From Coriobacteriia bacterium (GTDB taxonomy: Bacteria; Actinomycetota; Coriobacteriia; WRKU01; WQUG01): a DNA stretch of 33,193 bases. The DNA lies in NCBI GenBank assembly GCA_009781115.1, contig WQYT01000015.1:1-33193 (forward strand), in the 5' to 3' direction. This document shows, piece after piece, positions 2,492 through 30,909 of the stretch (the stretch's first letter is position 1; every line of letters starts with the position of its first letter). A model generated the notes under the pieces. The model saw only the letters and a list, made by a program, of their open reading frames with translations, was not told the origin of the DNA and searched no databases. The translations under genes and the position numbers were made by a program.

Positions 2492-2791
2492 ATGGTATTC
2501 ATGACAACGCGTGAATTGCGCACCAACACAAAAGAACTGTGGGAAACCCTGGATTCTCAGCAGGAGATCGTACTGACCAATAACGGTAAGCCCCGGGCGG
2601 TTGTGATCCCTACTGATCCCGAAGACCTGGAAGAGACGCTCCTCAGGATCCGCAGCGCTCGCGCAAAGGCGGCATGGTATTCCATCCGCGCGCAGTCCGA
2701 AGCAAATGGCACAGGCAACTTGAGTATGGACGAAATAGATGCGATCATCGCTGAGTCGCGTGCAGAAAGGCGCGCACAGCAGAGCGCCTGA
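2492..2791 (+). CDS. Type II antitoxin, Phd/YefM-like
   Basis: 99 aa: TTRELRTNTKELWETLDSQQEIVLTNNGKPRAVVIP is a typical Phd/YefM N-terminus; next to a PIN-domain ORF. Confidence 0.75.
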   Translation: MVFMTTRELRTNTKELWETLDSQQEIVLTNNGKPRAVVIPTDPEDLEETLLRIRSARAKAAWYSIRAQSEANGTGNLSMDEIDAIIAESRAERRAQQSA

Positions 2792-2792
2792 T

Positions 2793-3197
2793 ATGGGAGC
2801 ACCACGCCTGGTTGTTCTGGATACCAATGTTCTGGTATCAGGGAATATCACAAAGCATAATTCCCCTCCCACTGAACTGGTTGGGATGGTGCTTGATGGC
2901 TTATTGCGCCTTTGTTACGACACCCGCATGATGGCTGAGTACCGCGAGGTACTTTCAAGGCCACAGTTCAATTTTGATACTCGCGAGAAAGAGCTCCTGT
3001 TTGAAATGATCACAAGGTATGGCTTCGACGTTGATCCTCCTCGCTCCACTCTTGACTTTTCTGATGAATCAGATCGCCCGTTCTATGAAGTAGCAGAGCT
3101 CTGCCTTTGCCCGTTGGTAACAGGCAATAAAAAGCACTTTCCGCAGAGGGAGTGGATACTCAGCCCGGCGGAGTACCTTGCCGCGCTGTGGGAGTGA
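2793..3197 (+). CDS. PIN-domain toxin (putative toxin-antitoxin system toxin component, PIN family)
   Basis: MGAPRLVVLDTNVLVSG... DTNVLVSG N-terminal PIN motif and ...CLCPLVTGNKKHFP C-terminal motif. ATG 2793 abuts the antitoxin stop; track start 2739 lies inside the antitoxin. Confidence 0.8.
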   Translation: MGAPRLVVLDTNVLVSGNITKHNSPPTELVGMVLDGLLRLCYDTRMMAEYREVLSRPQFNFDTREKELLFEMITRYGFDVDPPRSTLDFSDESDRPFYEVAELCLCPLVTGNKKHFPQREWILSPAEYLAALWE

Positions 3198-4199: not shown

Positions 4200-4227
4200 A
4201 GGTTATCTTGAAAGGATGGTTCCCTTT

Positions 4228-4485
4228 ATGTTGACCTTGCCATTGGCAGAGGCGAAGACTCAGTTTTCGCAGGTGATGAAAAAAGTGCGTACAGGTGAAT
4301 CAGTCACGGTGTCGTACGGGAAAAAGCGTGAACCGATCGCCGTCATCATCCCCTTTGATGACTGGTCGAAACTCAATCGCAAGCCGCGCAAGCTGGGAGT
4401 TCTGCAGGGCAGAGGGTCGGTGGAGTTTGCTGATGACTGGGCGATGACGGCTGAAGAACTGATCGGTGAAGAGCCGGTTGTCTAA
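4228..4485 (+). CDS. Type II antitoxin, Phd/YefM-like
   Basis: MLTLPLAEAKTQFSQVMKKVRTGESVTVSYGKKREPIAVIIPFDDW; SD AAAGG at 4211-4215 favours ATG 4228 over track start 4216. Confidence 0.8.
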   Translation: MLTLPLAEAKTQFSQVMKKVRTGESVTVSYGKKREPIAVIIPFDDWSKLNRKPRKLGVLQGRGSVEFADDWAMTAEELIGEEPVV

Positions 4486-4880
4486 TGGGCTATCTTCTGG
4501 ACACCCACACGATTCTCTGGATGCTGCTGGAGCCGGAGAAGCTCTCGGCGGAAACGCACAAAGTTTTGCTGAATAATGATGTTGATATTTATTATTCACC
4601 TATTAGCTTGTGGGAGATCGCTATCAAATACTCGATTGGAAAGCTTAATCTGCACGGGGTTACTCCTGATGATGTGATGGCGGCCCTTGATGAGGAGCCT
4701 TTTGACTGTCTTGATGTCTTTCCGGGCATCTGGGCGCAGAGTTATCAGCTGCCCCGGCTCCACAGCGACCCTTTCGATCATCTGCTCGTCTGGGAGGCGC
4801 TCACCAACGACCTGACCTTTTTGAGCGCAGACAAAAAACTCCGTGCGTACGAAAGCGAAGGCCTCCGGATCATTGCGTGA
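4485..4880 (+). CDS. vapC: VapC-family PIN-domain toxin
   Basis: MGYLLDTHTILWMLLEPEKLS... SPISLWEIAIKYSIGKL ... HSDPFDHLLVWEAL...FLSADKKLRAY; ATG overlaps the antitoxin stop (TAATG). Confidence 0.88.
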   Translation: MGYLLDTHTILWMLLEPEKLSAETHKVLLNNDVDIYYSPISLWEIAIKYSIGKLNLHGVTPDDVMAALDEEPFDCLDVFPGIWAQSYQLPRLHSDPFDHLLVWEALTNDLTFLSADKKLRAYESEGLRIIA

Positions 4881-5557: not shown

Positions 5558-5708
5558 TCAGTAAAAAAACGCACGTCTGTCCGTACTCTCTGTTATACTG
5601 GAAATCAGCGACATTCCCATCAGGTCACCGCAGCTCAGCGCCCTGTTTCGTCACTCGCTGGCGGAAAGTGTCCTTGTTATTTCACCCGATGAACCTAAGG
5701 AGGACCCC

Positions 5709-6884
5709 ATGAGCGAGAAGATCGAAACCTACCGGGATGCTGTTGTAAGAATCAAGAACGCGGTGCTGCAAAGCAGGTACCGGGCAGCAAGCGCCGCAAA
5801 TGCAGAGCAGCTGAACTTGTATTTCAGCGTTGGCGGATACATTTCTGTCAATACACGTTCTGGAAAATGGGGAAGTGGTGCCATTGAGGCCATATCGCAA
5901 CAACTCCAGACGGAACTGCCGGGGCTACGCGGGTTTTCGCCGACGAGCATGAAAAGCATGAGGTTGTTTTATGAGGAGTGGAGTGACGTAATTCGTCCGT
6001 TGGCAACGGACGAATTACCGCTTGGAACAAATCGGCAGTTGCTAACTGCCGATTTAGAAAGCGCAAATGGTCCAACCGGGCCTGCTATTGCAAACGCAGT
6101 TGAGTCAGAGGACTTCGCAGCATTTCTGCGGGTGGGATTTACTCATCACCGTCAGATTATCGCAAAGTGCAAAGACCTCGATGAGCGCTGGTACTACATC
6201 AAGCGTTGTGCCGCTGAGTTCTGGTCGGTCGAGGCGCTCAAGTCTCATATGCGCGCAAGGGATTATCAGCACAGCGGCGGCCTGCCAAACAACTTCACTC
6301 TGACGCTGCCTGATGAGCACACTGCGGCAAGGGCGGTGCGTTCATTTAAGGATGAGTATCTGCTGGACTTCATCAACATTGAGGATGAAACTGATCCGGA
6401 GCTTATCGACGAACGTGTTGTAAGTCATGAAATCGTACGCAATATCACGAAGTTCATCATGAGCATGGGCCGAGGCTTTACTTTTGTCGGTGAGAATCAT
6501 CGAGTGATTTTTGATGAGCAGGAATACTTCATTGACATCTTGCTGTACAGTCGAGACCTGCGTTGTCTGGTCGCGTTGGAGCTTAAGAGTGGCGGCTTCA
6601 AACCTTCCTATCTCGGGCAACTTTCGTTCTATCTTTCTGCTTTGGACGAGCTGGAGAAGATGCCGGATGAGAACGGCTCGATTGGACTCTTGCTCTGCAA
6701 GAAGGCCAGCAAATCGACCGTGGAGTTTGCTGTGCGGGACTATAACAAGCCGATGGGTGTTGCCGTTTATAAGGCTGCCGAGGATGTCCCGGAGCAATAT
6801 CAATCCTTGAAACCCCTTATCGACGGCGTGCAGGGTATTCTGTCTGAGGAGAACGAGGTTGATAGTGCAGCACCCTCGCAGTGA
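5709..6884 (+). CDS. PD-(D/E)XK nuclease family protein, YhcG/DUF1016-like
   Basis: N-terminal helical domain (AVLQSRYRAASAANAEQLNLYFSVGGYIS...WGSGAIEAISQQLQTELPGLRGFSPTSMKSMRLFYEEW) and C-terminal nuclease-like domain (FVGENHRVIFDEQEYFIDILLYSRDLRCLVALELKSGGFKPSYLGQLSFYLSALDE). Confidence 0.9.
   Translation: MSEKIETYRDAVVRIKNAVLQSRYRAASAANAEQLNLYFSVGGYISVNTRSGKWGSGAIEAISQQLQTELPGLRGFSPTSMKSMRLFYEEWSDVIRPLATDELPLGTNRQLLTADLESANGPTGPAIANAVESEDFAAFLRVGFTHHRQIIAKCKDLDERWYYIKRCAAEFWSVEALKSHMRARDYQHSGGLPNNFTLTLPDEHTAARAVRSFKDEYLLDFINIEDETDPELIDERVVSHEIVRNITKFIMSMGRGFTFVGENHRVIFDEQEYFIDILLYSRDLRCLVALELKSGGFKPSYLGQLSFYLSALDELEKMPDENGSIGLLLCKKASKSTVEFAVRDYNKPMGVAVYKAAEDVPEQYQSLKPLIDGVQGILSEENEVDSAAPSQ
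5988..6018. repeat. Intragenic palindrome 1 in the DUF1016 CDS
   Basis: GTAATTCGTCCGTT-ggc-AACGGACGAATTAC, perfect 14-bp arms; encodes VIRPLATDELP. Confidence 0.92.
6029..6055. repeat. Intragenic palindrome 2 in the DUF1016 CDS
   Basis: AAATCGGCAGTT-gct-AACTGCCGATTT, perfect 12-bp arms; encodes NRQLLTADL, in the same frame and 39 bp after palindrome 1. Confidence 0.92.
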
Positions 6885-7054
6885 TCGGGCGGGGGCAGGC
6901 TTGCTGGTTAACGCTCTTGTGGAAAAGCGCGAGACGGGGCGTTTGATCCCCCAACTCGTGTATGATACAAGTGCAGTGAAACGTCGGGAGAAATCACCCG
7001 TCTGATGCGTCAGGGGAGCGCTGCCAGCAAGTTCCTGGAAGGAGCCACAAAACT

Positions 7055-8176
7055 ATGAGTACGATCATGGACATACCACAAGAAGAAACACCCCAGTTGG
7101 AACCCCAGCCAGCAGCGCCAGCAGCGCCGGGAACTACCGACCTGGCAAAGATCGGCAGCAGGTCTGACCTCAATCCAGAGCAGCAGGCGCTGGTCGACCA
7201 GCGCGCACAGGGGCTCACTTTTGATATCAACAGCATCCAGGCTTACGGCAGCGCTGCGCAACAGCGTATGTCCACGTTTACGGAGTCTGCCCTGGGCCGG
7301 GTCCGCGGCAAGGACATGGGGGAGGTCGGCGGCCTGATCACCAACTTGATGGTAGACCTCAAGGGCTTTAACCCCAACGACTCCAAGGGCATCATGGGCC
7401 TCTTTCGCAAGGCGGGCGCCAGCATCGCGAAGATTCAGGCACGCTATACCGCCATCGAATCAAGCGTTGACAAGGTGGTCGAGAAACTCAAAGGGCACGA
7501 GATGGAGCTTAAGGCAGACGTCACGATGCTTGACACCATGTATGACGAGAACCTGAAGTACTACCAGGACCTGACGCTCTACATCCTGGCGGGCAATCAG
7601 GCGCTGGAAAAGGGCCGTGCAGATCTTGCCACGCTCCAGGCAACCGCACAGGAAAGTGGAGAGGCGGCAGACGCGGAGAAATCCTACCGGCTCAGCGAGG
7701 CGATCAATCTGTTCGAGAAGCGGCTGTATGACCTGCAGCTGACCCGCACGATCTCCATCCAGACAGCGCCCCAGATCAGGCTGATCCAGGGCGCGGACAA
7801 CGCCATGGTCAACAAGATCGACAGCACCATCAATAACACGATCCCGCTGTGGAAGCAGCAACTGGTTCTTGCAAAGAGCCTCTTCAACCAGGCCGAGGCA
7901 GAAAAGACGCAGGCAGAAGTCGATGAAACCACTAACGAGCTGCTCAAGCGCAATTCGGCCCAGCTCAAGGCCGGGTCCATTGAGGCCGCCAAAGCCTCAG
8001 AGCGCGGCATCGTTGAAGTAGAGACCTTAGAGCAGACCAACCAGGACCTCATGACTACGCTCGATGAAGTGCTGGCGATCCAAAAAGAGGGCCACGAGAA
8101 GCGCCAGGCAGCAGAAGTCAGGCTTCAGGCCATCGAAGGCGAGCTCAAGGCCAAGCTGCTCGAAACCGCCCGGTAA
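7055..8176 (+). CDS. Toxic anion resistance protein, TelA/KlaA family
   Basis: 373 aa; LDTMYDENLKYYQDLTLYILAGNQALEK, LTRTISIQTAPQIRLIQGADNAMVNKIDSTINNTIPLWKQQLVLA and following TelA-family motifs. Confidence 0.88.
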   Translation: MSTIMDIPQEETPQLEPQPAAPAAPGTTDLAKIGSRSDLNPEQQALVDQRAQGLTFDINSIQAYGSAAQQRMSTFTESALGRVRGKDMGEVGGLITNLMVDLKGFNPNDSKGIMGLFRKAGASIAKIQARYTAIESSVDKVVEKLKGHEMELKADVTMLDTMYDENLKYYQDLTLYILAGNQALEKGRADLATLQATAQESGEAADAEKSYRLSEAINLFEKRLYDLQLTRTISIQTAPQIRLIQGADNAMVNKIDSTINNTIPLWKQQLVLAKSLFNQAEAEKTQAEVDETTNELLKRNSAQLKAGSIEAAKASERGIVEVETLEQTNQDLMTTLDEVLAIQKEGHEKRQAAEVRLQAIEGELKAKLLETAR

Positions 8177-17884: not shown

Positions 17885-20800
17885 GTGAGACTGATCATGA
17901 AGGATGCAAGCTACCACCAAACGACGCCAGTAAACGCCAGAACTTGTCCGCGAGGCAATAACTTCGCGCAACCACCGCCTCCACCACACTGCGCAAGCCC
18001 TTGCCCTCCGCCCCCTCTGCCTACTAAACCGCACTTTAAACGTTTCCTTTGTGTTCTTCTGATTTTCTCCCTCTTCTTTTCTGTTTACCCTACCCTTTTA
18101 TTTGCTGCTGACATCCCCCTGTCATCTGATGTGACTTCAGCTTCTGCTTCTTTAGCAGGAGCCGAACCAGTAAGCGATGAGCGCCCCTTAGGACAAAAGC
18201 CCTTAGACAGCAGCCAGCTTGCGCAACTCGGCGCCCAGGCAGAGGCGCAAGCAGGCGAAAGCCCGTACCAGATACCAGAGATCACCGGAGAAGAGACCGA
18301 GCTGCGAACTGAGTCCGTTAAACATTTCAGATGCGCCGATGGCTCATCAGTAGCGGTAGATTATGGCTATCCTGTCCACTTCAAGAGGTCGCTTGACAGC
18401 CCCTGGGAACAGAGAGATTATTCTTTAGTGGATGCAGGGCAGACCGCACGCGATGGTACTAAAGAGTATTCCCTTAAAGCTGCGCCTGATAAGATAACTG
18501 TTGCTGCAACAGCTAAATCAGCCCAGATTCTTTCTGCCCAGGTTGCAGGACACAGTCTCTCTTGGGGATATGCCGGTATTGCTGCAACCAAAGCAGAGGT
18601 TGCAAACGGGCAGGCTGCCATAAGCAGAGATAGCGCCAAGCTTAGCTCTATCAGATCAGAGGTCATAGCAAGTGACATATCAACAACCACACCAAAGCTG
18701 GCAGCTAAGTCCGGCGCACAAAGCCCCGCACAAGCAGAAACAACCAAGCCCGAGGCGCTGACTGGCAATGATAAGTTCTTAACCTTAACCAGTCTTACCT
18801 CATCGTCTTATTACGCTGATATCTATGACAGCGTTGATGTTGACTATGTCATAGGTCCGCTCGGGGTCAAAGACAATTTGATCTTAAAGTCGCCGCAAGC
18901 CCAACATGAGTTTATATCAGACTATGATATTGGGGACTTGACAGCAAGACAGACAGATTCAAAGACCATAGACCTAATGGACGAAACAGGATCAGTTGTT
19001 GCTACCCTCAGCGCACCATATATGACTGACAGCGCAGATGATATCTCCTACGATCTGACGCTTTCTATCGTAAATAACAGCTCCGGAAAGCTCAGCGTAA
19101 AACTTAGCGCTGACAAAACGTGGCTTACCAGCAAAGACAGGGCTTATCCGGTTGTGATAGACCCGATGCTACAAAGCGTCCAGACGACCTATCAGCAGGC
19201 CTATGTTGCTTCAGGGCAGCCCAGCACAGCTCATCCGTATGGCGATATGTATGTCGGCTATGATGGCAACGCCTACAAAATAGCGCGCGGTTATCTGCGC
19301 TTTGATTTTCCCACTATACCAACCGGCTCTATTGTCTTAGAAGCTAACCTTGCAATGTATCAGTATTCCTACAGCGCAGTACCGTCTAATACCACCGCCA
19401 CAACCTATACGTTGCATCCGGTGACAGACACGACCTGGACAGCAAATACGCTGACCTGGAACAATAAACCAGGGTATACCTCAACAGTTTCTGACTACGC
19501 GATTACTTCTTCAGCAAAAAACGCAAACTATCTGACCTTCGACGTTACCAGACTGGTCAAAGATACCCTTGAGACCTCGACTGCTTCAACTAAAAAGCTC
19601 TCAGTCATGCTCAAAGGCAAAAATGAGACCACCACGTCTCCTTACGCAAACGTGCGGCTGCTTACGGCAAACTATCCTGGGCTGCCATCAGGCGCAAAGC
19701 CCTTTATCTATTTCTTCTACCGTGACAGCAAGGGGCTGGAAGACTACTGGTCATATACGACCATAAGTGCCGGAGACGCAGGGACGGCCTCGGTAAATGA
19801 CTACACCGGCAACCTTGTCTTTGAGCACGCAGACGCAGCTACCACAGGGCTCAGGATGCCGGTCGCGCTGTCTTCAGTCTATAACTCCGATATCTCAGAT
19901 GGCTATCGTCCCGGGGGAGCTTCAGGAGAGATCCGTCATGGCAGAGGTTGGAAGCTATCACTGATCTGTCGTGTGCAGACAACAGCTGCCGTTGGCTTTG
20001 CAGGCGACACAACGGTCTATCCTTACGTCTATACTGACGCAGATGGGACGCTGCATTACTTTAGAAAGGACGGAACTAAAATTACCGATGAAGACGGGCT
20101 GAACTTAGAGCTGGCAAAGCTTACTTCAGGCTACAGCATCACTGACAAGAAAGGCGGTGTGATGACCTTTGACGCAGATGGCTATCTCACTCAAATCAAG
20201 GATGCCAATGGTAATGCCGCTACCATCAGCTACGTTTCTGGCTCACACCGCCTGTCACAAGTCAAAGACGGCATTGGGCATATCATCAGCTTTGACGCGC
20301 CACTTAACAGTGCCGGTAATGCTTACTACCTCTCAAAGATCACTGATCCGGCGGGGCGTGTTACGGGCTATTCCTGTGACAGCAATGGACGTCTTGTGCA
20401 GATCAAGTATCCAGACGCTACGCTTTCAAAGTATGAATACAACGCCAAAGGCCAGCTCTACCGCGCCTACTCATCAGATGGTACCGGGGCTGAGTTTATC
20501 TATAAATCAGATGGCAGCGTGTCACGCATACGTGAATATGGAGGAACACCCACAAACCCCATGAGCTCGCCCGGGCTTACCTATCGTTTTGATCGTTCGA
20601 AGTATTGCGCTACTACCATTGAAAGCCCGGGAGCAGACGGAGTCCTTTCTTTAACTGATGGAGACACCCGCAATGACGACAATGTCTTCACAACCCTACA
20701 ATTTGACACCTGGGGGCATACAGTCTCATCCATTGCAAAGGTAGGCAGCACCACACTGGGGGCGGGAACTTCATCTTATACCAAAGGCAGCAATGACAGC

Positions 20801-23800
20801 ACGAGCGACACCGCTAAGCGCAACCGTCTCATTAACTCGGCGACACTGGCCAAAAACTCAGTCAATTTATGTGCCAATCCCGGCGCTGAAGCAGCCTTGG
20901 GCTCAGAGTGGACCAGTCTGCTCTATGGAACAAGCGCTACCTTCAGCTTTGCCCGGACCAGTGCAGATAAATATCAGGGTAACTACTCGCTGAAGCTTAC
21001 TTCAACAGCTGCAGGGACCACCTCGGCTGCCAGGGCTTATCAGGCTTTTTCTACCACTGATGTCAAGGGGGGCTATACCTACACCTTTTCAGCAGACGTA
21101 AAGGCAGCAGGCATAACTCCCGTGCAAGGTTCTGTAAGCTCAAAGGCTGGCGCCGTCCTGCTTTTGTATGCCTACTCGCCAACGGGGAACACTTACACCT
21201 TCTCAGAGTACCTGAGCGGCACTACTGACAGCGCCACAGACAGTGGATGGAGGCGCCTGTATGCCACCTTAAAGATGCCTGATGACACCACCTCTGTGCG
21301 CGCCAACCTCATGATCTATTCAGCCACCGGAAGCGCCTACTTCGATAACATGCAGCTGGAAAACGCCACCGCACCAAACTCTTGCAACCTGATAGAAAAC
21401 GGCAGCCTGGAACGTGGCAGCGGTATTGCTCCAACCAAATGGAGCGCCACAGGCCTTGACGCGTCAACTGATGGGCTGTCAGGCACCTATTATCAGTACA
21501 ACTCAAAGTCTTTCAAGATCGCAGGCGTACCCTCTGCAAGCAAAGAGCTCAAACAAGATATCGCAATCACCGGGGTTGCGCGTGATACCTATATCGTAAG
21601 CGGTTGGGCGCGCGCGACTGCCATCATGCGCGACGACGCCAAATATGACCTGGTGGCCACCGTTACCTATGCAGGCGGCACAACTAAAGACAGAGCAACC
21701 GCCTCATATAACTCCTGCATATCAGACTGGCAATATGTAAGCGCCGCCTTTACGCTGGGGTCAGGAAGCACTTCAAGTGACCTGCCGGTAAAAGTCAGTG
21801 TTCGTCTGCGCTATACCAAGCAAGATAATACCGCCTACTTTGATAACATAGCGCTTATCAAAGACAGCGCGCCTACCTATACCTATGACGCAGATGGAAA
21901 TTTGTTGACCGTATCTGCCAATGCGCAAAATAACGCCGCGATGCAATATACCAATAATGATCTGACCAAGTACACCGATGCCAAAGGCTATGCTTATACG
22001 TATACCTATGACACCAAACACAACATGACCCAGGCAAAAAGCCAAAACGGAGTGACCTCTAACTACGCCTATGTCAACGGCAACCCAAAAACCCTTGATG
22101 TAAAAAGCCCCGGACAGACTCTGGATATTGCAACGTCTCTTACCTATACGGCTGCTACAGGGGGTCTTTCTGCTGGCGGTTATGTGTCGTATGTCTATGA
22201 CCCAGACGGAGTCTCTGAACACTATACCTATGACCAGGCAAAGGGACTTGTGACATCGGCAAGTAACCGTAACAACATCAGTACCACTTATACCTATAAC
22301 GCAAATACTGACCAGATGACCTCCGTGTCCAGCTCAGGAGCTACTGCTTCTTACGGCTATACCGATGATCGCTTAAGCTCTGTTACCCATAACGGCTTTA
22401 GCTATCACTTAAGCTATGATGTCTATGGAAACCCCACGGAGACCAAAGTAGGCAGCCAGTCGCTCTCTAAGCACGCCTACACTGGTTGGGGAGGACTATT
22501 GAGTTCTGAGACCTACGGAAATGGGGACTTGGTGCAGTATGCCTACAACAACTACGGCGCTGTTACCTCCGTCAAGAAAGGAAATGCGACGACTACTCCG
22601 GCTACCAAATACGGTTGGTCATATAACAGTGCGGGAGACCCCTATAAGCACACAGACTATGTATCTGGCCTTACCTATCAGTACCGTACAGACTCAATAG
22701 GGCGGGCTGTCTCCCAGCGTGTCTCATCTACTGCCGACAGCTCTACTAAATACGAGACCCAGTACGGCTATGACGTAAACAACAACATAAACAAAGTGGT
22801 AAACGCAGCTACCGGAGGATCTACGTATACAACCTCATATACCTACGGGCAAGATAACCTGCCCACAACAGCAGGGTTTTTAGGCACGACACGCAAAATT
22901 GACTATACCCATGACGCCTTAAACCGTCTGCAGCAGACTAACCTGAGCTTAGATGCTCCTCTCAATCAGTATTATGGTTACAAGCTCTCTGACAGAAACA
23001 CAACTGATCAAACACAGTATCGCACCACAACGCTTGCTTATGAGTTTATCGGGCTGAGGGGTTATACCTATACCTATGACAGCATGGGCAATCTCTTAAC
23101 CGTCAGAGAAGGCGTCCGTGCAAACCAGGACGTTAACGCAGGTTCAGGCTTTGCTACCAAGATTAGCTATCAATATGACAACCTGGGACAGCTCATAAGA
23201 GAAAACAACGTCTACACTAACAAGACCACGACCTGGACCTATGACAGCGGCGGAAACATTACTTCCAGAAAAGAATACGCCTACACCACAGGAACTCTGG
23301 GGGCAGTGCAAAAGACAGTCAGTTATACCTATAACGCTACCTGGAAAGACAGGCTGGACAACTACGGTGGGAGCGCAATCACTTATGACGCCATAGGTAA
23401 CCCGCTTAGCTATAGAGGTTACAGCTTGGGCTGGAGCGGGGGCAGACAGCTGGCAACCATCTCCGGCAACAAGATTACCTCAGGAAGCTTTAAATATGAC
23501 GCAGCAGGACTACGAAGCCAGAAAAAGATCAATGGAGTCACTACTGACTACTACTATGTAGGAGGACAGCTCCTGGCAGAAAACAGAGGCGGTGTAATCT
23601 ATCAATACCAATATGACGCAGCAGGCAGACCAGCCCGCATCTCTTTTACCAGCTCTGACGGTGTAGCTACCAGTCTCTACCTTATTTCTAACAGCAGAGG
23701 AGACATCGAAGAGATACGCAACGCTGCCGGTAACTTATGCGCTCGTTACTACTACGATGCCACAGGAAATATCACCTCTATCCAAAATGCGAGTGGAGCA

Positions 23801-24592
23801 GAGATTACCAGCGCCACCAACATCGCCATCATCAATCCCTTCCGCTACCGGGGCTACTACTACGATTCAGAGACAGGACTGTACTATCTGGAGAGCAGAT
23901 ACTATGACCCTGCTACCGGGAGGTTTATCAATGCTGATGGCATGGTGCAGACGGGACAAGAGATCAACGGGACTAACATGTTTGCCTACTGCGGCAATGA
24001 TCCAGTGAATAATGTTGATCCATCGGGACAGTTGTTTACGCCTGGAGAGGCGAACTCATACTACTATACGGGCAATCCAAAAGCTCCCGATGCAAAGTTA
24101 TACGCAAAGATTTACCCCAAACAGCAGAAAAAAGCAAATAAAATGCAGCAAGAATTCGTTGGACCATCGGCAGCCAGTCAAAATAGAATTTTTGATACTA
24201 TTGACGAAGCCGCAATAGATTTTGTATTGCGATACAATGCCATATCGATAAGTTCCTGTCGAGAATATGATGTAATTATTGTAAAAACACCTGACGGTAG
24301 ATACACCTATGGGGAGCCAGGGATAGGCCCTAAAAGAACAGGCTATAAGGGGTCAGGTGCTGCTTTGTATTGGGATGCAAATATTGTTGGCTGGGTGCAT
24401 ACACACGGACAATATTATGGCCCGCTAAATGACTACTTCACTAGTACTGGTGCCGATTATGATATTTCAAAAAATTGGAACATACCTGGATATGTGGGAA
24501 CTCCAGCGGGTACAGTGAGAAAATATAACCCCTTTAATGGCAGTGACTTGATAATTTTCTATAATGCTCCGCGTGACCCAAGGCATCCGTAA
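17885..24592 (+). CDS. Secreted RHS/YD-repeat polymorphic toxin with C-terminal DUF4329-like domain
   Basis: 2235 aa; N-terminal hydrophobic segment RFLCVLLIFSLFFSVYPTLLFAAD; DNRLRE-like region (YVASGQPSTAHPYGDMYVGYDGNAYKIARGYLRFDFP); two CBM-like NxxxNPGAE/NLIENGSLE modules; many YD repeats (YTYDADGNLLTV, YQYDAAGRPARI); RHS core end FRYRGYYYDSETGLYYLESRYYDPATGRFINADG...NPVNNVDPSG-type; variable tail with VGWVHTHGQYYG. Confidence 0.9.
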   Translation: MRLIMKDASYHQTTPVNARTCPRGNNFAQPPPPPHCASPCPPPPLPTKPHFKRFLCVLLIFSLFFSVYPTLLFAADIPLSSDVTSASASLAGAEPVSDERPLGQKPLDSSQLAQLGAQAEAQAGESPYQIPEITGEETELRTESVKHFRCADGSSVAVDYGYPVHFKRSLDSPWEQRDYSLVDAGQTARDGTKEYSLKAAPDKITVAATAKSAQILSAQVAGHSLSWGYAGIAATKAEVANGQAAISRDSAKLSSIRSEVIASDISTTTPKLAAKSGAQSPAQAETTKPEALTGNDKFLTLTSLTSSSYYADIYDSVDVDYVIGPLGVKDNLILKSPQAQHEFISDYDIGDLTARQTDSKTIDLMDETGSVVATLSAPYMTDSADDISYDLTLSIVNNSSGKLSVKLSADKTWLTSKDRAYPVVIDPMLQSVQTTYQQAYVASGQPSTAHPYGDMYVGYDGNAYKIARGYLRFDFPTIPTGSIVLEANLAMYQYSYSAVPSNTTATTYTLHPVTDTTWTANTLTWNNKPGYTSTVSDYAITSSAKNANYLTFDVTRLVKDTLETSTASTKKLSVMLKGKNETTTSPYANVRLLTANYPGLPSGAKPFIYFFYRDSKGLEDYWSYTTISAGDAGTASVNDYTGNLVFEHADAATTGLRMPVALSSVYNSDISDGYRPGGASGEIRHGRGWKLSLICRVQTTAAVGFAGDTTVYPYVYTDADGTLHYFRKDGTKITDEDGLNLELAKLTSGYSITDKKGGVMTFDADGYLTQIKDANGNAATISYVSGSHRLSQVKDGIGHIISFDAPLNSAGNAYYLSKITDPAGRVTGYSCDSNGRLVQIKYPDATLSKYEYNAKGQLYRAYSSDGTGAEFIYKSDGSVSRIREYGGTPTNPMSSPGLTYRFDRSKYCATTIESPGADGVLSLTDGDTRNDDNVFTTLQFDTWGHTVSSIAKVGSTTLGAGTSSYTKGSNDSTSDTAKRNRLINSATLAKNSVNLCANPGAEAALGSEWTSLLYGTSATFSFARTSADKYQGNYSLKLTSTAAGTTSAARAYQAFSTTDVKGGYTYTFSADVKAAGITPVQGSVSSKAGAVLLLYAYSPTGNTYTFSEYLSGTTDSATDSGWRRLYATLKMPDDTTSVRANLMIYSATGSAYFDNMQLENATAPNSCNLIENGSLERGSGIAPTKWSATGLDASTDGLSGTYYQYNSKSFKIAGVPSASKELKQDIAITGVARDTYIVSGWARATAIMRDDAKYDLVATVTYAGGTTKDRATASYNSCISDWQYVSAAFTLGSGSTSSDLPVKVSVRLRYTKQDNTAYFDNIALIKDSAPTYTYDADGNLLTVSANAQNNAAMQYTNNDLTKYTDAKGYAYTYTYDTKHNMTQAKSQNGVTSNYAYVNGNPKTLDVKSPGQTLDIATSLTYTAATGGLSAGGYVSYVYDPDGVSEHYTYDQAKGLVTSASNRNNISTTYTYNANTDQMTSVSSSGATASYGYTDDRLSSVTHNGFSYHLSYDVYGNPTETKVGSQSLSKHAYTGWGGLLSSETYGNGDLVQYAYNNYGAVTSVKKGNATTTPATKYGWSYNSAGDPYKHTDYVSGLTYQYRTDSIGRAVSQRVSSTADSSTKYETQYGYDVNNNINKVVNAATGGSTYTTSYTYGQDNLPTTAGFLGTTRKIDYTHDALNRLQQTNLSLDAPLNQYYGYKLSDRNTTDQTQYRTTTLAYEFIGLRGYTYTYDSMGNLLTVREGVRANQDVNAGSGFATKISYQYDNLGQLIRENNVYTNKTTTWTYDSGGNITSRKEYAYTTGTLGAVQKTVSYTYNATWKDRLDNYGGSAITYDAIGNPLSYRGYSLGWSGGRQLATISGNKITSGSFKYDAAGLRSQKKINGVTTDYYYVGGQLLAENRGGVIYQYQYDAAGRPARISFTSSDGVATSLYLISNSRGDIEEIRNAAGNLCARYYYDATGNITSIQNASGAEITSATNIAIINPFRYRGYYYDSETGLYYLESRYYDPATGRFINADGMVQTGQEINGTNMFAYCGNDPVNNVDPSGQLFTPGEANSYYYTGNPKAPDAKLYAKIYPKQQKKANKMQQEFVGPSAASQNRIFDTIDEAAIDFVLRYNAISISSCREYDVIIVKTPDGRYTYGEPGIGPKRTGYKGSGAALYWDANIVGWVHTHGQYYGPLNDYFTSTGADYDISKNWNIPGYVGTPAGTVRKYNPFNGSDLIIFYNAPRDPRHP

Positions 24593-24612: not shown

Positions 24613-25146
24613 ATGAAGAGAGTAACTAATGCAGTTAAGATTCTTACGTTAGTATTCATTTTCATGATCGGGTGCACGGCGTGTGCGCAAGAATCTGGGC
24701 ATGCAGAACCTCATAGTTCTACGAACAGTAGCCAGTCAAAAACAAGCAGTTCTGTTGAGTCTACTGAATCAAATAAGCAAATCGTTTATGATTTATTTAA
24801 CAAGCTGTATATATATGAAGATGATGGTGATACTGCTGCTGATTTTGCAATAGGTGAGGCAGACAAATTATCTGACAAATGTTTAGGGAAAATTACTTCC
24901 GAAGAAGATGCCAAAGAAAAAGCTGAAGTCACTTGGATGAAAATAGACGGATATGGTGACGCCAAAGGTGAAAAACCATATGATGCAACATATTATAAGG
25001 AGTATGATGTCTGGCTGATTCATGGAGCTCTTAATACGCCAAGCACAGATTCAAGCGGCAGAAAGTACGCTATTCCTGGTGGAGTAGATTACATTATCAT
25101 GCGAGCATCAAACGGAGAAGTCTTAGCGGTTTGGGGTGACAGTTGA
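24613..25146 (+). CDS. Lipoprotein, candidate immunity protein (NTF2-fold immunity-like C-terminus)
   Basis: Lipobox FMIGCTAC; ITSEEDAKEKAEVTWMKIDGYGDAKGEKPYDATYYKEYDVWLIHGAL...GGVDYIIMRASNGEVLAVWGD resembles NTF2-fold immunity domains; immediately downstream of the RHS toxin. Confidence 0.6.
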   Translation: MKRVTNAVKILTLVFIFMIGCTACAQESGHAEPHSSTNSSQSKTSSSVESTESNKQIVYDLFNKLYIYEDDGDTAADFAIGEADKLSDKCLGKITSEEDAKEKAEVTWMKIDGYGDAKGEKPYDATYYKEYDVWLIHGALNTPSTDSSGRKYAIPGGVDYIIMRASNGEVLAVWGDS

Positions 25147-25152
25147 TTCCGG

Positions 25153-25239
25153 TGGGGTGCATACCCCGCAGCTCTGCTGCGTGCCGGACGGCGATGCGAA
25201 GCGAGCTAGGCCTGATACCCCGCGGTCTCTGCCGCGGGG
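25153..25239. repeat. REP-like double-hairpin element
   Basis: CGCAGC-tct-GCTGCG (25167-25181) and CCCCGCGG-tctctg-CCGCGGGG (25218-25239), each preceded by ATACCCCGC; GC-rich in an AT-rich neighbourhood. Confidence 0.75.
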
Positions 25240-25256
25240 AGCGGCTTCGTTTCGAT

Positions 25257-25397
25257 GGATTCGCTGTAAATACGTTTTATGGAGGTGCATACAGTGGGTG
25301 GTTTACAACTGATGTTAAAACGCATCTGTTCTCACTCTCTACAAATCCGGGCGGGTCTGCTGGGATAGATCATTATTGGGACGTAAGTAGTAAATGA
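25257..25397 (+). pseudogene. Orphan RHS toxin C-terminal fragment
   Basis: GFAVNTFYGGAYSGWFTTDVKTHLFSLSTNPGGSAGIDHYWDVSSK*; no own start; its stop overlaps the ATG of the next ORF (ATGA). Confidence 0.5.
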
Positions 25398-25636
25398 AGT
25401 ACTATCATTTAATTTTTGGAAGTCTTTCTGTGATTGTGGGTCTCTATTCGATCATTAGAAGGAATCATCCATCAAAGCGCCAAGAAATTCTTTGGGGTGA
25501 GGAATTAATAGAGAAAAGAGCCTACAAAGTATCTTACATTATTCTTAGCATTTTGATCATTTTGGTTGGACTAAATTTAATCGCCAAAGGAATATTTGAT
25601 CCAAACAGTGGGTATTTCTTTGTTCGCTTTAGATAG
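25394..25636 (+). CDS. Small two-TM protein, candidate immunity protein
   Basis: 80 aa MKYYHLIFGSLSVIVGLYSIIRRNHPSKRQ...KVSYIILSILIILVGLNLIAKGIF; translationally coupled to the preceding fragment. Confidence 0.6.
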   Translation: MKYYHLIFGSLSVIVGLYSIIRRNHPSKRQEILWGEELIEKRAYKVSYIILSILIILVGLNLIAKGIFDPNSGYFFVRFR

Positions 25637-25656
25637 TCTGCATTTGAAGCAGGTAA

Positions 25657-25764
25657 AGTAAGAGACCACTACCTGGAGCTAGGACGATGGAGAAAATATC
25701 ACCGCCAAAAGGAACACATTCAGTCAATCCAAAATATGAAGGCCGATTCTATAAATATAAGTAG
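25657..25764 (+). pseudogene. Short orphan ORF, possible RHS toxin C-terminal fragment
   Basis: SKRPLPGARTMEKISPPKGTHSVNPKYEGRFYKYK* ends 7 nt before the ATG of the next lipoprotein remnant. Confidence 0.4.
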
Positions 25765-25771
25765 GAGGAAA

Positions 25772-25935
25772 ATGAAGAAGCTTATCTTAATTACAATGAT
25801 CGTCTGCTCTTGCGTTCTGGTTTTCTGTAGTAGGAATACGTCATCAGAAAAGCAAGTTCAAGTGTTATTACACAGAGCAAAAACTATATCATTACGCGGC
25901 TTAGTGTAGATAAAGTATCGAGCATATATAACTGA
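25772..25935 (+). pseudogene. Frameshifted short lipoprotein remnant
   Basis: MKKLILITMIVCSCVLVFCSRNTSSEKQ... in one frame, continuing as SSSVITQSKNYIITRLSVDKVSSIYN* in another; SD TAGGAGGAAA. Confidence 0.45.
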
Positions 25936-25945
25936 GGTGACAGAG

Positions 25946-26855
25946 ATGAAATTAGTAAAGATATTAATAATTGCTTTACTTTTGTCTGCTCTTTCAGCTT
26001 GTAGTTTAGTGACAAACGGCGATTCTGGTTCCAGCAACACTGTAAGCAGTTCTGGGGCATGGAAATTACATTCGCATCAGTCATTGACGAGCAACGCGAT
26101 CTCGCGAGCAGAGCTACGTGCAAATGAAGGGATGACGATTGATGTTTTGGGTGTCGGATTGAAAAGCGTTGTTGTCAGGAGGAAGGCTGAGGAGCACGTC
26201 ACTAGCTTTAATCAATCCCCTTTATATGCATATATTCTCAGTGATTATCGTTATAATCAGCCTGCCACTCATGATTTCTATTTAGCTGTCGAAACGGGAA
26301 GCAAAGTACTGTTTTACGACTTCGAGAGTTCCAGTCTTGATGATATTTTATGCTTTTGTGACGTGGATGGTGATGGACTGGATGAGATTATTGTCCAACA
26401 AACGATTGATGAGCTCGGAGGGGCGGGGCAATTTTCATCACACATTTTTAAGGTCATTGATAATAAAATTCAAGAAATATTTTATTCATCAACGGCTAAT
26501 CAGTTTGATACTGGTTTTACCAGCATGTTTTTGAATGGGCGCAAATTAAAGATCACGAATAGTATTACTGGATACCATAAGATCATTGATATATCAAAAA
26601 GATATACCAGTGATTTCTTTGACAAAAATGGCAAACCTGTTAGCAAAGAAACGATTTGGTGTGACAGTTTTCATGAGTTTACCCCCAGGGATGTCGATGG
26701 AGACGGCGTTTTTTGAGATGATCTGTTTGCAGTATGTATCCCTGGATAGTCACGCAGATGGCATAGGCGATACCAAAAGTGTTTTGAAATACAATAAGCA
26801 AACAAGAAAGTTTGAAGTTGTCCAGGCAGAGTTCATCCCTGCAAAGTATTTGTAA
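25946..26855 (+). pseudogene. FG-GAP/VCBS-like lipoprotein interrupted by a frameshift at a T6 tract
   Basis: Lipobox LSALSACS; DVDGDGLDEIIV and DVDGDGVF|EMICLQYVSLDSHADG...; ORFs 25937-26716 and 26586-26855 join if one T of 26709-26714 is skipped. Confidence 0.7.
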
Positions 26856-26865
26856 GGCCAGGTAA

Positions 26866-26961
26866 AATGAAAAAGTGGATCAAGTCAGGAAACTTTCAGT
26901 TCGACGTGTTGAGGCGTATTGGGGTGATGAGTATGAAGATAGATTTTTCATTAAGAAGTAA
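26866..26961 (+). pseudogene. Short orphan ORF, possible RHS toxin C-terminal fragment
   Basis: NEKVDQVRKLSVRRVEAYWGDEYEDRFFIKK*; no start codon; ends 9 nt before the next lipoprotein ATG. Confidence 0.4.
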
Positions 26962-26970
26962 AGAGGCATC

Positions 26971-27564
26971 ATGCGCAAGAAGTCGTTCCTTATCATTCTC
27001 GTGGTTTTCTTATTGATGGGCTGTAATGGGAAGGACACTCAATTAAATAAACCAAACTTTCCCGCTTCTGTAGATGCGCCTGCTGCGGTTCAGCCCGTAA
27101 TTTCGGAAGGCGAGCAATATAAGGTTGTCGGTGATTTAGAAAACGGGTGGCATTATTATATATATGACCGAAAGGGTGATGTTGTAGATAGTAGTAGCGG
27201 AGATAGAGTTCCTCCAGATATTAATTATGTCTCTAGTGACATCATCGAGATACGTTCGCATGGGGGAACTTATGCTGACGTCTGCAAGTATTATGACGTC
27301 ACTTCCAATCAATTTTCCGAAGACTATGACAATCCATTTCTCGTGCAGGGTGGCAAAATCGTTTACTATGACGCACAGACAAGAATGCTCACAATAAGAG
27401 ATATCTTTGATAAGTCAGTCTTCTATAAGGAATATAAAAGAAATATGTCTTGGGATCGGCCGCCGCTTTCCATTAAATTAGATTACAATGACAGGCAGCT
27501 AACGATAACTTATTATGATGAATCTGATGTTCACATAAAAACGGAAACATTGAAATTGAATTAG
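26971..27564 (+). CDS. Lipoprotein of unknown function (candidate immunity protein)
   Basis: MRKKSFLIILVVFLLMGCNG lipobox; 197 aa; within the RHS tail. Confidence 0.6.
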   Translation: MRKKSFLIILVVFLLMGCNGKDTQLNKPNFPASVDAPAAVQPVISEGEQYKVVGDLENGWHYYIYDRKGDVVDSSSGDRVPPDINYVSSDIIEIRSHGGTYADVCKYYDVTSNQFSEDYDNPFLVQGGKIVYYDAQTRMLTIRDIFDKSVFYKEYKRNMSWDRPPLSIKLDYNDRQLTITYYDESDVHIKTETLKLN

Positions 27565-27720
27565 TTCGGCTGTGAAACAGGTAGATATGACGGAAAATGC
27601 GCTGCAGCAATATCTGGTAATTTTAGTAGGATACCATCAATTTTTATGCAACATACAATTGGTGGGCATCTTGGAAGGCGACAAGATGAATGTAATCTGT
27701 TCATAAATGGGGCGTATTAA
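27565..27720 (+). pseudogene. Orphan RHS toxin C-terminal fragment (candidate)
   Basis: FGCETGRYDGKCAAAISGNFSRIPSIFMQHTIGGHLGRRQDECNLFINGAY*; no start codon, in frame with and directly after the preceding TAG. Confidence 0.45.
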
Positions 27721-28336
27721 GTTGAAACAAACAAAAATGGTCACCGCCATCCTCCTCTTTCTTATGTTGCTGTTTCTTGTATCTGCATGTCAGCATTTAC
27801 CATCAGGAAGTTCTGGCACTTCGTCGAGTAATAAAAAATTGAGCAGTGATACTAATGTGATGCCAAGCAATATAGGAATGACTCCTGGAGATAATTATTA
27901 CGAAGAAAATGCCAAGTGGTTCAAGAACAATCCCATTGATAAAGCCTACCTTGCGGAAGCTCAACCAGATACTACATATGGCAATGCGGAGCTCGAAATG
28001 AAGTATTTGACTATCTGGCAAAATGAAGTTGCTTTCAGCGCATCAAATTTCAGAAAACGACTAGATGCAAGCGATGCTGCTGCATTCGATCGTCAACAAA
28101 AACTGTGGGAAGAGTGGGCAAATGGCAGTATTGATTTCGACCATGACATAATGAATCACGGAAAATACGGAATTGATATGGGAACAAGCAGGCAGTTTAT
28201 TTACACCGATGCAAAAATGAATATATGGCGAGATAGGGACATGCATTTGAAATACCTTACGTCATACCTGGAATATTATTGTGATAATCCTCTGCCTGAA
28301 AACCAATGGACCTGGAACAAGTTTAATTATCCTTAG
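27707..28336 (+). CDS. Lipoprotein of unknown function (candidate immunity protein)
   Basis: Lipobox LLFLVSACQ; 209 aa or slightly shorter (alternative starts TTG 27722, ATG 27737). Confidence 0.6.
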   Translation: MGRIKLKQTKMVTAILLFLMLLFLVSACQHLPSGSSGTSSSNKKLSSDTNVMPSNIGMTPGDNYYEENAKWFKNNPIDKAYLAEAQPDTTYGNAELEMKYLTIWQNEVAFSASNFRKRLDASDAAAFDRQQKLWEEWANGSIDFDHDIMNHGKYGIDMGTSRQFIYTDAKMNIWRDRDMHLKYLTSYLEYYCDNPLPENQWTWNKFNYP

Positions 28337-28340
28337 GAGG

Positions 28341-28457
28341 ATAATAAGACACATCAATAATCTTCTGTATTGGGGTGATGGGTTACGAAGAAAGAAAAAT
28401 AACCCATGGAGCTCAGGAAGAGTAGTAAGCATAACGAAAGTAGGCAACTGCCATTAA
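28341..28457 (+). pseudogene. Short orphan ORF, possible RHS toxin C-terminal fragment
   Basis: IIRHINNLLYWGDGLRRKKNNPWSSGRVVSITKVGNCH*; no start; precedes a lipoprotein ATG by 11 nt. Confidence 0.35.
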
Positions 28458-28468
28458 GGGAGTGGAAC

Positions 28469-29109
28469 ATGAAAAAAGCTGTTATACTGCCAGCCCTTAT
28501 AACGCTGCTTATATTATTAATAGCAGGATGCGCTTTAAACGCTAACAGCAATCCGAATAGCTCGCAGTTATCTTCAAGCACAAATGTAAAGGCAGAGCCA
28601 TGGCAAAATGCGTATGCGGAATTTCTAAAGGGCTTTCCTGCTCTTACTGACTATGATTTCTCGACTTTTTCTTTGAGGGACTTAGATAATGACAGCGTTC
28701 CCGAATTAATAATCATTCAAGGAAAAGAAGATGAACAAATTAAGACCCTATCTGTTTATTCCTATAACGGCCTGTTGTTAAAACTGGCGAATGCGATGAT
28801 CCAAACTCATATGCAGGTGCATTCCGTTTCTCAAAGAGCCCGATATTTCCCGGATTGTTTTCTCTTAGATGGGATGGAGGTGTAGAGTATTACGGATACC
28901 TGTCAGTCAAGGAAAAGCAATTGGTGTTTGAGGATTTATGGCGGATGGATCGGACGTCAGATGTACCGCAACAAATAGAAGTTTCTGATAATAAGGAGCT
29001 TGTCCATGAATCAATGCGCGTATTCTTGCCTGGTGATAATACTGATAATTCGCTCAAAACATACTTAATGAATAACGATAATATCAATGAAATTGTTTTG
29101 CAGAATTGA
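28469..29109 (+). pseudogene. VCBS-like lipoprotein interrupted by a frameshift near 28848
   Basis: Lipobox LLIAGCAL; ORF 28406-28885 (real start 28469) continues in the -1 frame as ...YFPGLFSLRWDGGVEYYGYLSVKEKQLVFEDLWRMDRTS... to 29109. Confidence 0.65.
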
Positions 29110-29188
29110 GGCCCGTCTTGGAAAAAGCGTACTACTTTGTGAAAAATGATAACCAGGTATTCTCAGTGCTGAAACAGAAAGAGCAGGA

Positions 29189-30040
29189 ATGAAAAAATTA
29201 ATTGCTGTTTGCATTTTGCTGATGTTGGTTTTGGCGTCATGCACAACGTCACAAAGACCAAACCCGATGGGATCATCATCAGTACAATCAAAGCCTGAAC
29301 TTTCATCGGCAGAGACAACTAATACAACAGGTGATGCTCCGTATACAATAAGCAACTCATATATTGCTATTACAAATACCGCAGCGAAGTATTTCATCCA
29401 AACCTATACGCTGATTGACAATTCACACAAGAACAGTAAAGTCTCTATTCGCTTTCCACAGCTTGTTATGGGGGATGACGCAATAAATAAACTCATAGAA
29501 AATTATGCAATCCATTTTGCAGAAAACGGCTATGGAAAAGATTACGCTAACTTGTCTTTGGACGTGGATTATCATATTACTTACAATGATGATGAGTGGA
29601 TAAGCATTTCATTTAATGGGTTTGGCAATGTAAAAACTGCGCCGCATCCCAATAACATATTAACGACATTAAACATTAATTTGAAGAATGGATCGACTCT
29701 AAAACTGAGTGATATTTATACGATTGATAAAAGTTTTGTACAGATCTATCGGAAAGAATTTGCGAAACAAATGGCTTATCGTTTTGGGGTGGCAGACACC
29801 ACAGCAAATGAAGCCGCCAGGAACTACCTGGATCAATATGACGATAAGACGCTGACAGGGTACCTTAATGATTCTTACTGTTACATGACTTGCGATAAAA
29901 TCGGAATTAGTTTTGAAACGATATTTGCAATGGGCAATCATTTTGAACCTGAAATCCCTTATTCAGATTTGCTACCGTATTTGAAACTGCATACAGCACC
30001 CTTCAGCAAGCCTGGGTTTGGAACTATGGTTGGATGGTAA
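29189..30040 (+). CDS. Lipoprotein with DUF4163/RsiV-like domain
   Basis: Lipobox LVLASCTT; NLSLDVDYHITYNDDEWISISFNGFGNVKTAPHPNNILTTLNINLKNGSTLKLSDIYTID. Confidence 0.65.
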   Translation: MKKLIAVCILLMLVLASCTTSQRPNPMGSSSVQSKPELSSAETTNTTGDAPYTISNSYIAITNTAAKYFIQTYTLIDNSHKNSKVSIRFPQLVMGDDAINKLIENYAIHFAENGYGKDYANLSLDVDYHITYNDDEWISISFNGFGNVKTAPHPNNILTTLNINLKNGSTLKLSDIYTIDKSFVQIYRKEFAKQMAYRFGVADTTANEAARNYLDQYDDKTLTGYLNDSYCYMTCDKIGISFETIFAMGNHFEPEIPYSDLLPYLKLHTAPFSKPGFGTMVGW

Positions 30041-30087
30041 GAATACGTGAGCTACTAATCCACAGAATCTTTAAAAAGGAAAAGAAG

Positions 30088-30909
30088 ATGAAATATTTCA
30101 GAGAGTATCACCTCCTCAGGCTTTCAATAACCCTTGCATTGATAACCCTGTTGCTTTCTGGTTGTGCAGGAAATCAAAAACAAACAAGTAGTTTAGGTAG
30201 AGCTGTATCGGGGGGATTTGATGTTGTTTCCTATTGCGCAAAGGAAGAAACTGCCAAAAATCGTATTTATTTTAACTATCCGCAATTTCAAGAGACAACG
30301 CCTGATGCAGACAAACTCAATGGACTGATAACTGGATTTGTAAAAAACGCTTTGCAGATATGTAATGGCGGGGGAGGATTTAAAGGCAACTTAAAAGATA
30401 CTTCTGAGAGTTGGAAATGGGATGAAGATGGCTATAGTGTTTTGGCTCTTGATGTTGACTATAAGATTACACGAAACGACTCAGATTATCTTAGCGTTAC
30501 GTTTGAAGGGGAATTTAATCATAAACGGCTCCCACATCCCACAAACTATTTCAACGCGCTTGTTATTGATATTAGAAAATGCGAATTAGTTTCATTATTA
30601 GATCTATATAATGTCGATGACGACTTTTTGAAAATGCTGAGAAGCGAATTTTCAAAACAGATTATTAGGGACCCGAAATATAATGAGATAAATGCGAATG
30701 AGAGAAAAATGTTGCAAGGATCTTTTGATGATTACACAGATGACTATTTGCGTAAATTGCTGGGACCCGAAGATGCCTATCCAAAATTATATCAGAGGAT
30801 GTTTTTGACTTCAGATATGGTGGGGGTTAGTATGCCACTGTCACATGTCGTAGGCGATCATTTTGAAGTGATGATCAGCTACGACGAATTAAGCAGCTTT
30901 GAAAGGTAA
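30088..30909 (+). CDS. Lipoprotein with DUF4163/RsiV-like domain, paralogue of the preceding gene
   Basis: Lipobox LLLSGCAG; VLALDVDYKITRNDSDYLSVTFEGEFNHKRLPHPTNYFNALVIDI...LLDLYNVDDDFLKMLRSEFSKQ aligns with 29189-30040. ATG 30088 used. Confidence 0.65.
   Translation: MKYFREYHLLRLSITLALITLLLSGCAGNQKQTSSLGRAVSGGFDVVSYCAKEETAKNRIYFNYPQFQETTPDADKLNGLITGFVKNALQICNGGGGFKGNLKDTSESWKWDEDGYSVLALDVDYKITRNDSDYLSVTFEGEFNHKRLPHPTNYFNALVIDIRKCELVSLLDLYNVDDDFLKMLRSEFSKQIIRDPKYNEINANERKMLQGSFDDYTDDYLRKLLGPEDAYPKLYQRMFLTSDMVGVSMPLSHVVGDHFEVMISYDELSSFER

Follow-up and report, generated by a model that had tools for sequence, protein, structure and literature searches.

A DUF1016/YhcG nuclease gene contains covarying palindromes that are predicted DNA sites of its own product

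We analysed a 33,193-nucleotide stretch of DNA from a Coriobacteriia bacterium (hereafter the window), in which a gene of the DUF1016/YhcG nuclease family (PDC-S02) carries two in-frame palindromes (Table 1). In Pfam, the encoded protein matches YhcG_C at 6e-46 (156.6 bits against a curated cut-off of 32.5) and DUF1016_N at 5.5e-26 (91.7 bits, cut-off 32.8), with no domains besides these two and no ParBc CTPase domain found. PADLOC assigns it to PDC-S02 at 3.5e-108, a family that it lists as a candidate for phage defence. A TelA-family (toxic anion resistance) gene lies directly downstream (7055-8176, Pfam). Upstream are two candidate toxin-antitoxin-like gene pairs (2492-3197 and 4216-4880), in each of which a PIN-like ORF follows a short antitoxin-like one, with PIN confirmed by Pfam for 4485-4880 only. 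Further along, a 2235-aa ORF (17885-24592) has, by eye, an RHS/YD-repeat-like look; with the row of small lipoprotein-like ORFs that follows it (24613-30909), it resembles a polymorphic-toxin locus.

Table 1 Features of the nuclease gene in the window, with the E. coli yhcG palindromes for comparison
Feature	Position in window	Strand	Remarks
DUF1016/YhcG-family nuclease gene	5709..6884	+	391 aa; Pfam, PADLOC candidate PDC-S02
DUF1016 N-terminal domain	5751..6269	+	ParB/Noc-type HTH fold, assigned via the relative L164
Predicted DNA-reading stretch	5940..5963	+	P78-T79-S80-M81-K82-S83-M84-R85 (= L164 79-86); covariation with pairs 5, 7, 8
Palindrome 1	5988..6018	.	27-bp unit 5990-6016 = AATTCGTCCGTTGGCAACGGACGAATT; encodes VIRPLATDEL; predicted cognate site
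Palindrome 2	6029..6055	.	AAATCGGCAGTTGCTAACTGCCGATTT; encodes NRQLLTADL; second predicted site
V174	6228..6230	+	Equivalent of L164 residue 133; covariation with pair 3
PD-(D/E)XK nuclease domain (YhcG_C)	6342..6806	+	Closest solved fold NucS/EndoMS
E. coli yhcG palindromes			K-12 AATTCGCCAGACAGTGTCTGGCGAATT; divergent allele (e.g. WP_001521407) AATTGTGCAGACACTGTCTGCACAATT

An earlier note on this DNA had described two palindromes in frame at 5988-6055, 39 bp apart, and both are present as described. Palindrome 1 can be read with 15-bp arms around a 1-nt axis or with 14-bp arms around a 3-nt centre, and palindrome 2 has 12-bp arms and a 3-nt centre. Their axes fall at 6003 and 6042, and the 27-bp unit of palindrome 2 begins 12 nt past the end of that of palindrome 1. 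Pairs 1-4, 6 and 8-10 (counted from the centre) are common to both, and each of the three differences in the left arm is compensated in the right arm, as the note had also held. The 391-aa ORF likewise encodes, in frame, the repeated peptide that the note reported, as IRPLATDEL and NRQLLTADL. In an AlphaFold model, the palindromes encode a low-confidence linker (pLDDT<50, residues 99-125) within the N-terminal domain. Across the organism's own genome, the palindrome design was found only at these two copies, and the core of palindrome 1 had no other copy at up to 3 mismatches.

Most members of the family, across several phyla, carry a near-perfect palindrome of 26-27 bp at homologous codons, with a minority showing no clear palindrome. 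In a first sample (80 homologues fetched, 81 usable genes), 80% of genes contained a perfect inverted repeat whose arms measured 10 bp or more, vs 3.6% of codon-shuffled copies. Among 97 representatives of the wider family, comprising homologues and further members drawn from other genomes, 85 had at least 11/13 pairs, compared with 7% of codon shuffles, and the palindrome axis was concentrated at codons 100-130. Palindromes with at least 12/13 pairs reached 0.65 per kb in DUF1016 coding DNA and 0.043 in the flanks, a 15-fold difference. Short-linker members have a single 27-bp unit, typically AATT-N9-[C/G]-N9-AATT, immediately followed by the conserved motif LxW[ST]H. One to three units occur in long-linker members, the window gene included. 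When 35 non-redundant genes were anchored on LxW[ST]H, blind to the palindromes, the mean was 9.4/13 pairs vs 5.0 after codon shuffling. Two outcomes had been named beforehand as refuting, namely synonymous changes that destroy the palindrome in homologues with the same peptide motif, and palindromes no commoner than in codon-shuffled controls; both were tested, and neither test gave a refutation.

The arms are nearly free to vary in sequence while their symmetry is kept. In 66 units, which were preselected for pairing, 96% of cells were paired and the covariation score was 0.82; shuffles scored 0.19 and slid partners no higher than 0.17. Symmetry spans roughly pairs 3-13; at the very centre (1-2 pairs) and beyond pair 13, it comes close to the chance level. 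The arms had seemed to evolve faster than the gene in pooled close pairs, and we dropped this idea since disjoint pairs gave 6.2% vs 8.6%. EcoRI-like cutting at the AATT ends was also rejected, because Ile and Leu/Phe codons together with the symmetry can account for these ends. Few DUF1016 relatives were found on viral contigs, and the open-access literature that we searched held no description of the palindrome, the ParB-like fold or the residue-base code of this family.

The bases of the palindrome follow particular residues of the protein that the same gene encodes. We compared 49 non-redundant genes of the 27-bp class (<60% identity), each entered with a unit of at least 11/13 pairs, using the residue numbering of a reference protein, L164. 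Counted over genes that are related by descent and hence non-independent, Arg or Lys at residue 133 went with C at pair 3 in 14/14 cases vs 1/35 otherwise (Fisher 2e-11; next-best column 5e-6), Arg at residue 80 with G at pair 7 in 15/17 vs 1/32 (1e-9; next best 0.01), Arg or Lys at residue 83 with G at pair 8 in 20/27 vs 1/22 (5e-7), and Asn, Gln or Tyr at residue 84 with A at pair 5 in 20/22 vs 8/27 (3e-5); R84 went with C in 9/13. The associations of residue 133 with pair 3 and of residue 80 with pair 7 persisted among 26 genes sharing less than 50% identity (6e-7 and 6e-6), and the signal was lost at a cut of <40%, which left only 11 genes. The 26-bp class (16 genes, mostly Bacteroidota) repeats the code, with R80-G in 6/6, N84-A in 7/7, Y84-A in 3/3, K83-G in 9/10 and R/K133-C in 2/2.

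Mutual information gave a consistent picture: residue 133 with pair 3 ranked first by a wide margin (z ~11), followed among others by residues 80, 83, 84 and 86, which lie in the predicted reading helix. Nine of the ten highest-ranking columns outside the palindrome fell in residues 50-135 (2.4 expected), and none of the ten in the nuclease domain. Within 14 genes that carry several palindromes, pair 3 agreed in 93% of comparisons, whereas agreement between genes was 36%; the outer pairs stayed symmetric even where they varied within one gene. In the window protein, the counterparts of residues 80/83/84/86/133 are T79, K82, S83, R85 and V174; T at pair 3 and G at pair 8 are common to both window palindromes and fit the code for V and K/R.

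E. coli yhcG offers a comparison within one species. Genes with K80/R83/R86 have C/G at pairs 7/8 of the first unit, while those with R80/W83/K86 have G/T; compared as sequences, helix and palindrome are switched together between the two classes, as the code predicts. At pairs 7-9, the second and third palindromes do not match the first, so a fixed base at the outer positions is no strict requirement. Strains with yhcG have one palindrome just past the stop codon, and strains without it have a lone palindrome between gltD and nanQ. In this gltD-nanQ region (L187, L188, L084, L087-L096) we also observed that yhcG is frequently broken or lost, through IS1 insertions and, in E. coli B, truncation at the third palindrome. 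An O157:H7 strain has lost palindromes 2-3 in frame, and several of the breakpoints are located in palindromes.

We then considered the fold of the domain in which the covarying residues lie. In the AlphaFold model of L164, a short-type protein, the palindrome encodes an ordered loop straight after helix 79-91. Structure comparison of its N-terminal domain gave supportive, though moderate, matches: Z 8.9 with Noc (7nfu_A, 98 residues), 8.1 with the Noc DNA-binding domain (6y93_A, 103/105 residues) and 7.6 with Spo0J-parS, scores that belong to this relative rather than to the window protein and to a kind of fold, helical, that reaches middling Z by chance. The HTH_ParB profile matches 9/44 members (best 1.2e-4) and is weak or absent in most. 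The nuclease domain is similar to NucS/EndoMS (2vld, Z 11.1); searching by sequence gave no convincing solved structure. In ParB and Noc, which bind palindromes as dimers, the ParB recognition helix alpha4 enters the major groove of the palindrome, alpha6 and alpha8 also contact the site, few residues set specificity, and the Arg of Noc at ParB position 201 reads a C:G pair (PMC7383237).

We conclude, with a probability of about 85%, that the protein probably reads the palindrome in its own gene as its cognate DNA site; symmetry throughout the family, a residue-to-base code and a similar fold, all of them computed, lead us to infer physical binding. The proposed protein would combine a ParB/Noc-type HTH domain with a NucS-like PD-(D/E)XK nuclease domain, and the HTH domain would bind the palindrome as a dimer, one monomer per half-site. 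The site would sit in the ORF codons right after the predicted reading helix, in the following loop or linker. Should the reading residues change, both half-sites would have to change as well; arm changes would be compensated because both half-sites serve identical monomers. The symmetry of the varying outer pairs goes beyond what a dimer site alone demands. Among the readings offered by the earlier note, that of a cis binding site for the nuclease system is strongly supported by the covariation of palindrome bases with residues of the protein's own HTH domain; the mobile element and the RNA hairpin are unsupported.

Several features of the palindrome would also suit a site recognised by structure, where an extruded hairpin or cruciform is cut or bound by the NucS-like nuclease regardless of sequence. 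The end of symmetry at pair 13 and its near-chance level in the central 1-2 pairs resemble a stem with a 3-4-nt loop, the nearest nuclease folds, NucS/EndoMS, are structure-specific endonucleases, YhcG was placed near Holliday-junction resolvases by Kosinski et al. 2005 (PMC1189080), and outer pairs that vary within one gene remain paired. However, an unread centre is equally expected of a dimer site, and recognition by structure predicts no residue-to-base code, yet a strong one is seen; we regard this explanation as very unlikely. Even less credence is due to an mRNA hairpin within the ORF as a control on how the nuclease message is translated or degraded. The RNA does fold strongly (-19.8 and -16.1 kcal/mol; z -5.5 and -6.2) and the 66 units covary, but the antisense strand folds as well, G-T mismatches are not consistently in excess of A-C mismatches (12 v 29 and 11 v 15; 7 v 3 in a small set), and covariation with the HTH residues is left unexplained. 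Rfam gave no structured-RNA match up to E 1 in 5700-6900.

Insertion of a mobile palindromic element of the Rickettsia or REP type into ORFs would explain why perfect palindromes range from 0 to 3 per gene and why solo palindromes, including a tandem triple in L237, occur near and away from genes. Against this, genes from different phyla have the palindrome at homologous codons, and pattern searches gave no copies in ordinary genes: the well-formed matches checked in other genomes lie inside further DUF1016 genes, and those in the class of the window's organism are DUF1016 genes, relics or solo sites. Many solo copies have flanks of decayed DUF1016 sequence, and two are remnants beside matching flanks, where the comparison of same-genus pairs (L191 vs L192, L207 vs L246) shows the gene mostly deleted and the palindrome left; in three genomes with solo copies, no recognisable YhcG_C domain was found. 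Because the codon position is homologous and the recognisable copies in the pattern searches are DUF1016 genes, relics and solo sites, the Rickettsia-like element suggested earlier is unsupported and, in our view, hardly tenable. The least credible explanation is that the palindromes have no function and are maintained by template-switch (quasipalindrome) mutation. Solo palindromes are indeed still near-perfect in genomes without the gene; yet template switching acts anywhere, whereas the palindromes are enriched 15-fold in DUF1016 coding DNA and track protein residues, and one-sided and two-sided changes numbered 13 and 13 in close pairs.

Comparison with known systems helps to place the predicted protein-site pairs. 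One parS site of B. subtilis lies within the spo0J (parB) gene. DUF1016 is predicted to share with ParB-parS and Noc-NBS the HTH fold, a palindromic site, reading by a dimer, contacts through alpha4 and later helices, and specificity set by few residues, with Arg against G:C as in ParB/Noc (PMC7383237). Unlike in ParB/Noc, a PD-(D/E)XK nuclease stands in place of a CTPase domain, none having been found, and the predicted site as a rule lies within the protein's own ORF, with many specificities having arisen by divergence. Since the ParBc CTPase domain was not found, we describe DUF1016 as working like ParB/Noc rather than as a member. PDC-S02, defined by DUF1016_N and YhcG_C, is the same family as the window gene; the palindrome, the ParB-like fold and the code go beyond what the papers searched describe for it. 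NucS/EndoMS resembles the nuclease domain in fold and differs in the N-terminal domain, and we are not aware of an intragenic site of this kind for NucS. Rickettsia palindromic elements and GTAG/CGTC REPs (PMC3733652) are likewise short palindromes, some of them in frame within ORFs. In contrast to these, DUF1016 palindromes are not dispersed among unrelated genes, with only the two window copies in that organism's genome and the well-formed ones checked elsewhere lying in DUF1016 genes, and position and code tie them to a single gene family.

As to what binding would achieve, we tentatively favour, at somewhat less than even odds, negative self-control, that is, self-repression or the parking (sequestration) of the nuclease on its own gene. 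A nuclease dimer bound there would block further transcription and/or keep the enzyme parked, and as the site lies within the ORF it would therefore always move with the gene on transfer. Self-cleavage and sensor roles are less likely. In the latter, which we consider unlikely, the site would act as a licence: the nuclease would be harmless on its own gene and freed to cut DNA upon gene loss, degradation or abnormal copying. If true, sensing of plasmid loss or phage takeover would turn this one gene into an addiction or abortive defence system, with a DNA site in the toxin's own reading frame as the 'antidote' and with lineages that diversify into separate specificities.

The predicted self-site has wider implications. 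An uncharacterised nuclease family, present in most E. coli genomes and many phyla, gains a predicted DNA target for each member, and the code makes this target testable by few-residue swaps. This would be a rare case in which the same stretch of DNA codes for a protein and serves as its predicted read site, and it would explain the covarying coding palindromes without a mobile element. The family would also serve as a large natural collection of matched protein-site pairs in which to follow the evolution of DNA-binding specificity.

Two further ideas were examined and rejected. An operator in the promoter, as in classic autorepression, was set aside, as most DUF1016 genes showed no similar palindrome in their promoter region and the flank scan gave mostly downstream relics. 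A link to the CGTC-tagged REPs, which have no known transposase (PMC3733652), was dropped as their stem is absent from the phage WO, Rickettsiales and Moraxella DUF1016 genes examined. Additionally, the L237 triple (L237:3257-3330) consists of three different tandem palindromes upstream of a DUF1016 gene, which share AATT ends and have arms resembling those in DUF1016 genes of related species. About 100 nt past a Treponema DUF1016 gene (L016:4198-4224) lies a perfect palindrome, AAAATTGCAGACAGTGTCTGCAATTTT, with an E. coli-type core unlike the internal palindromes of that gene.
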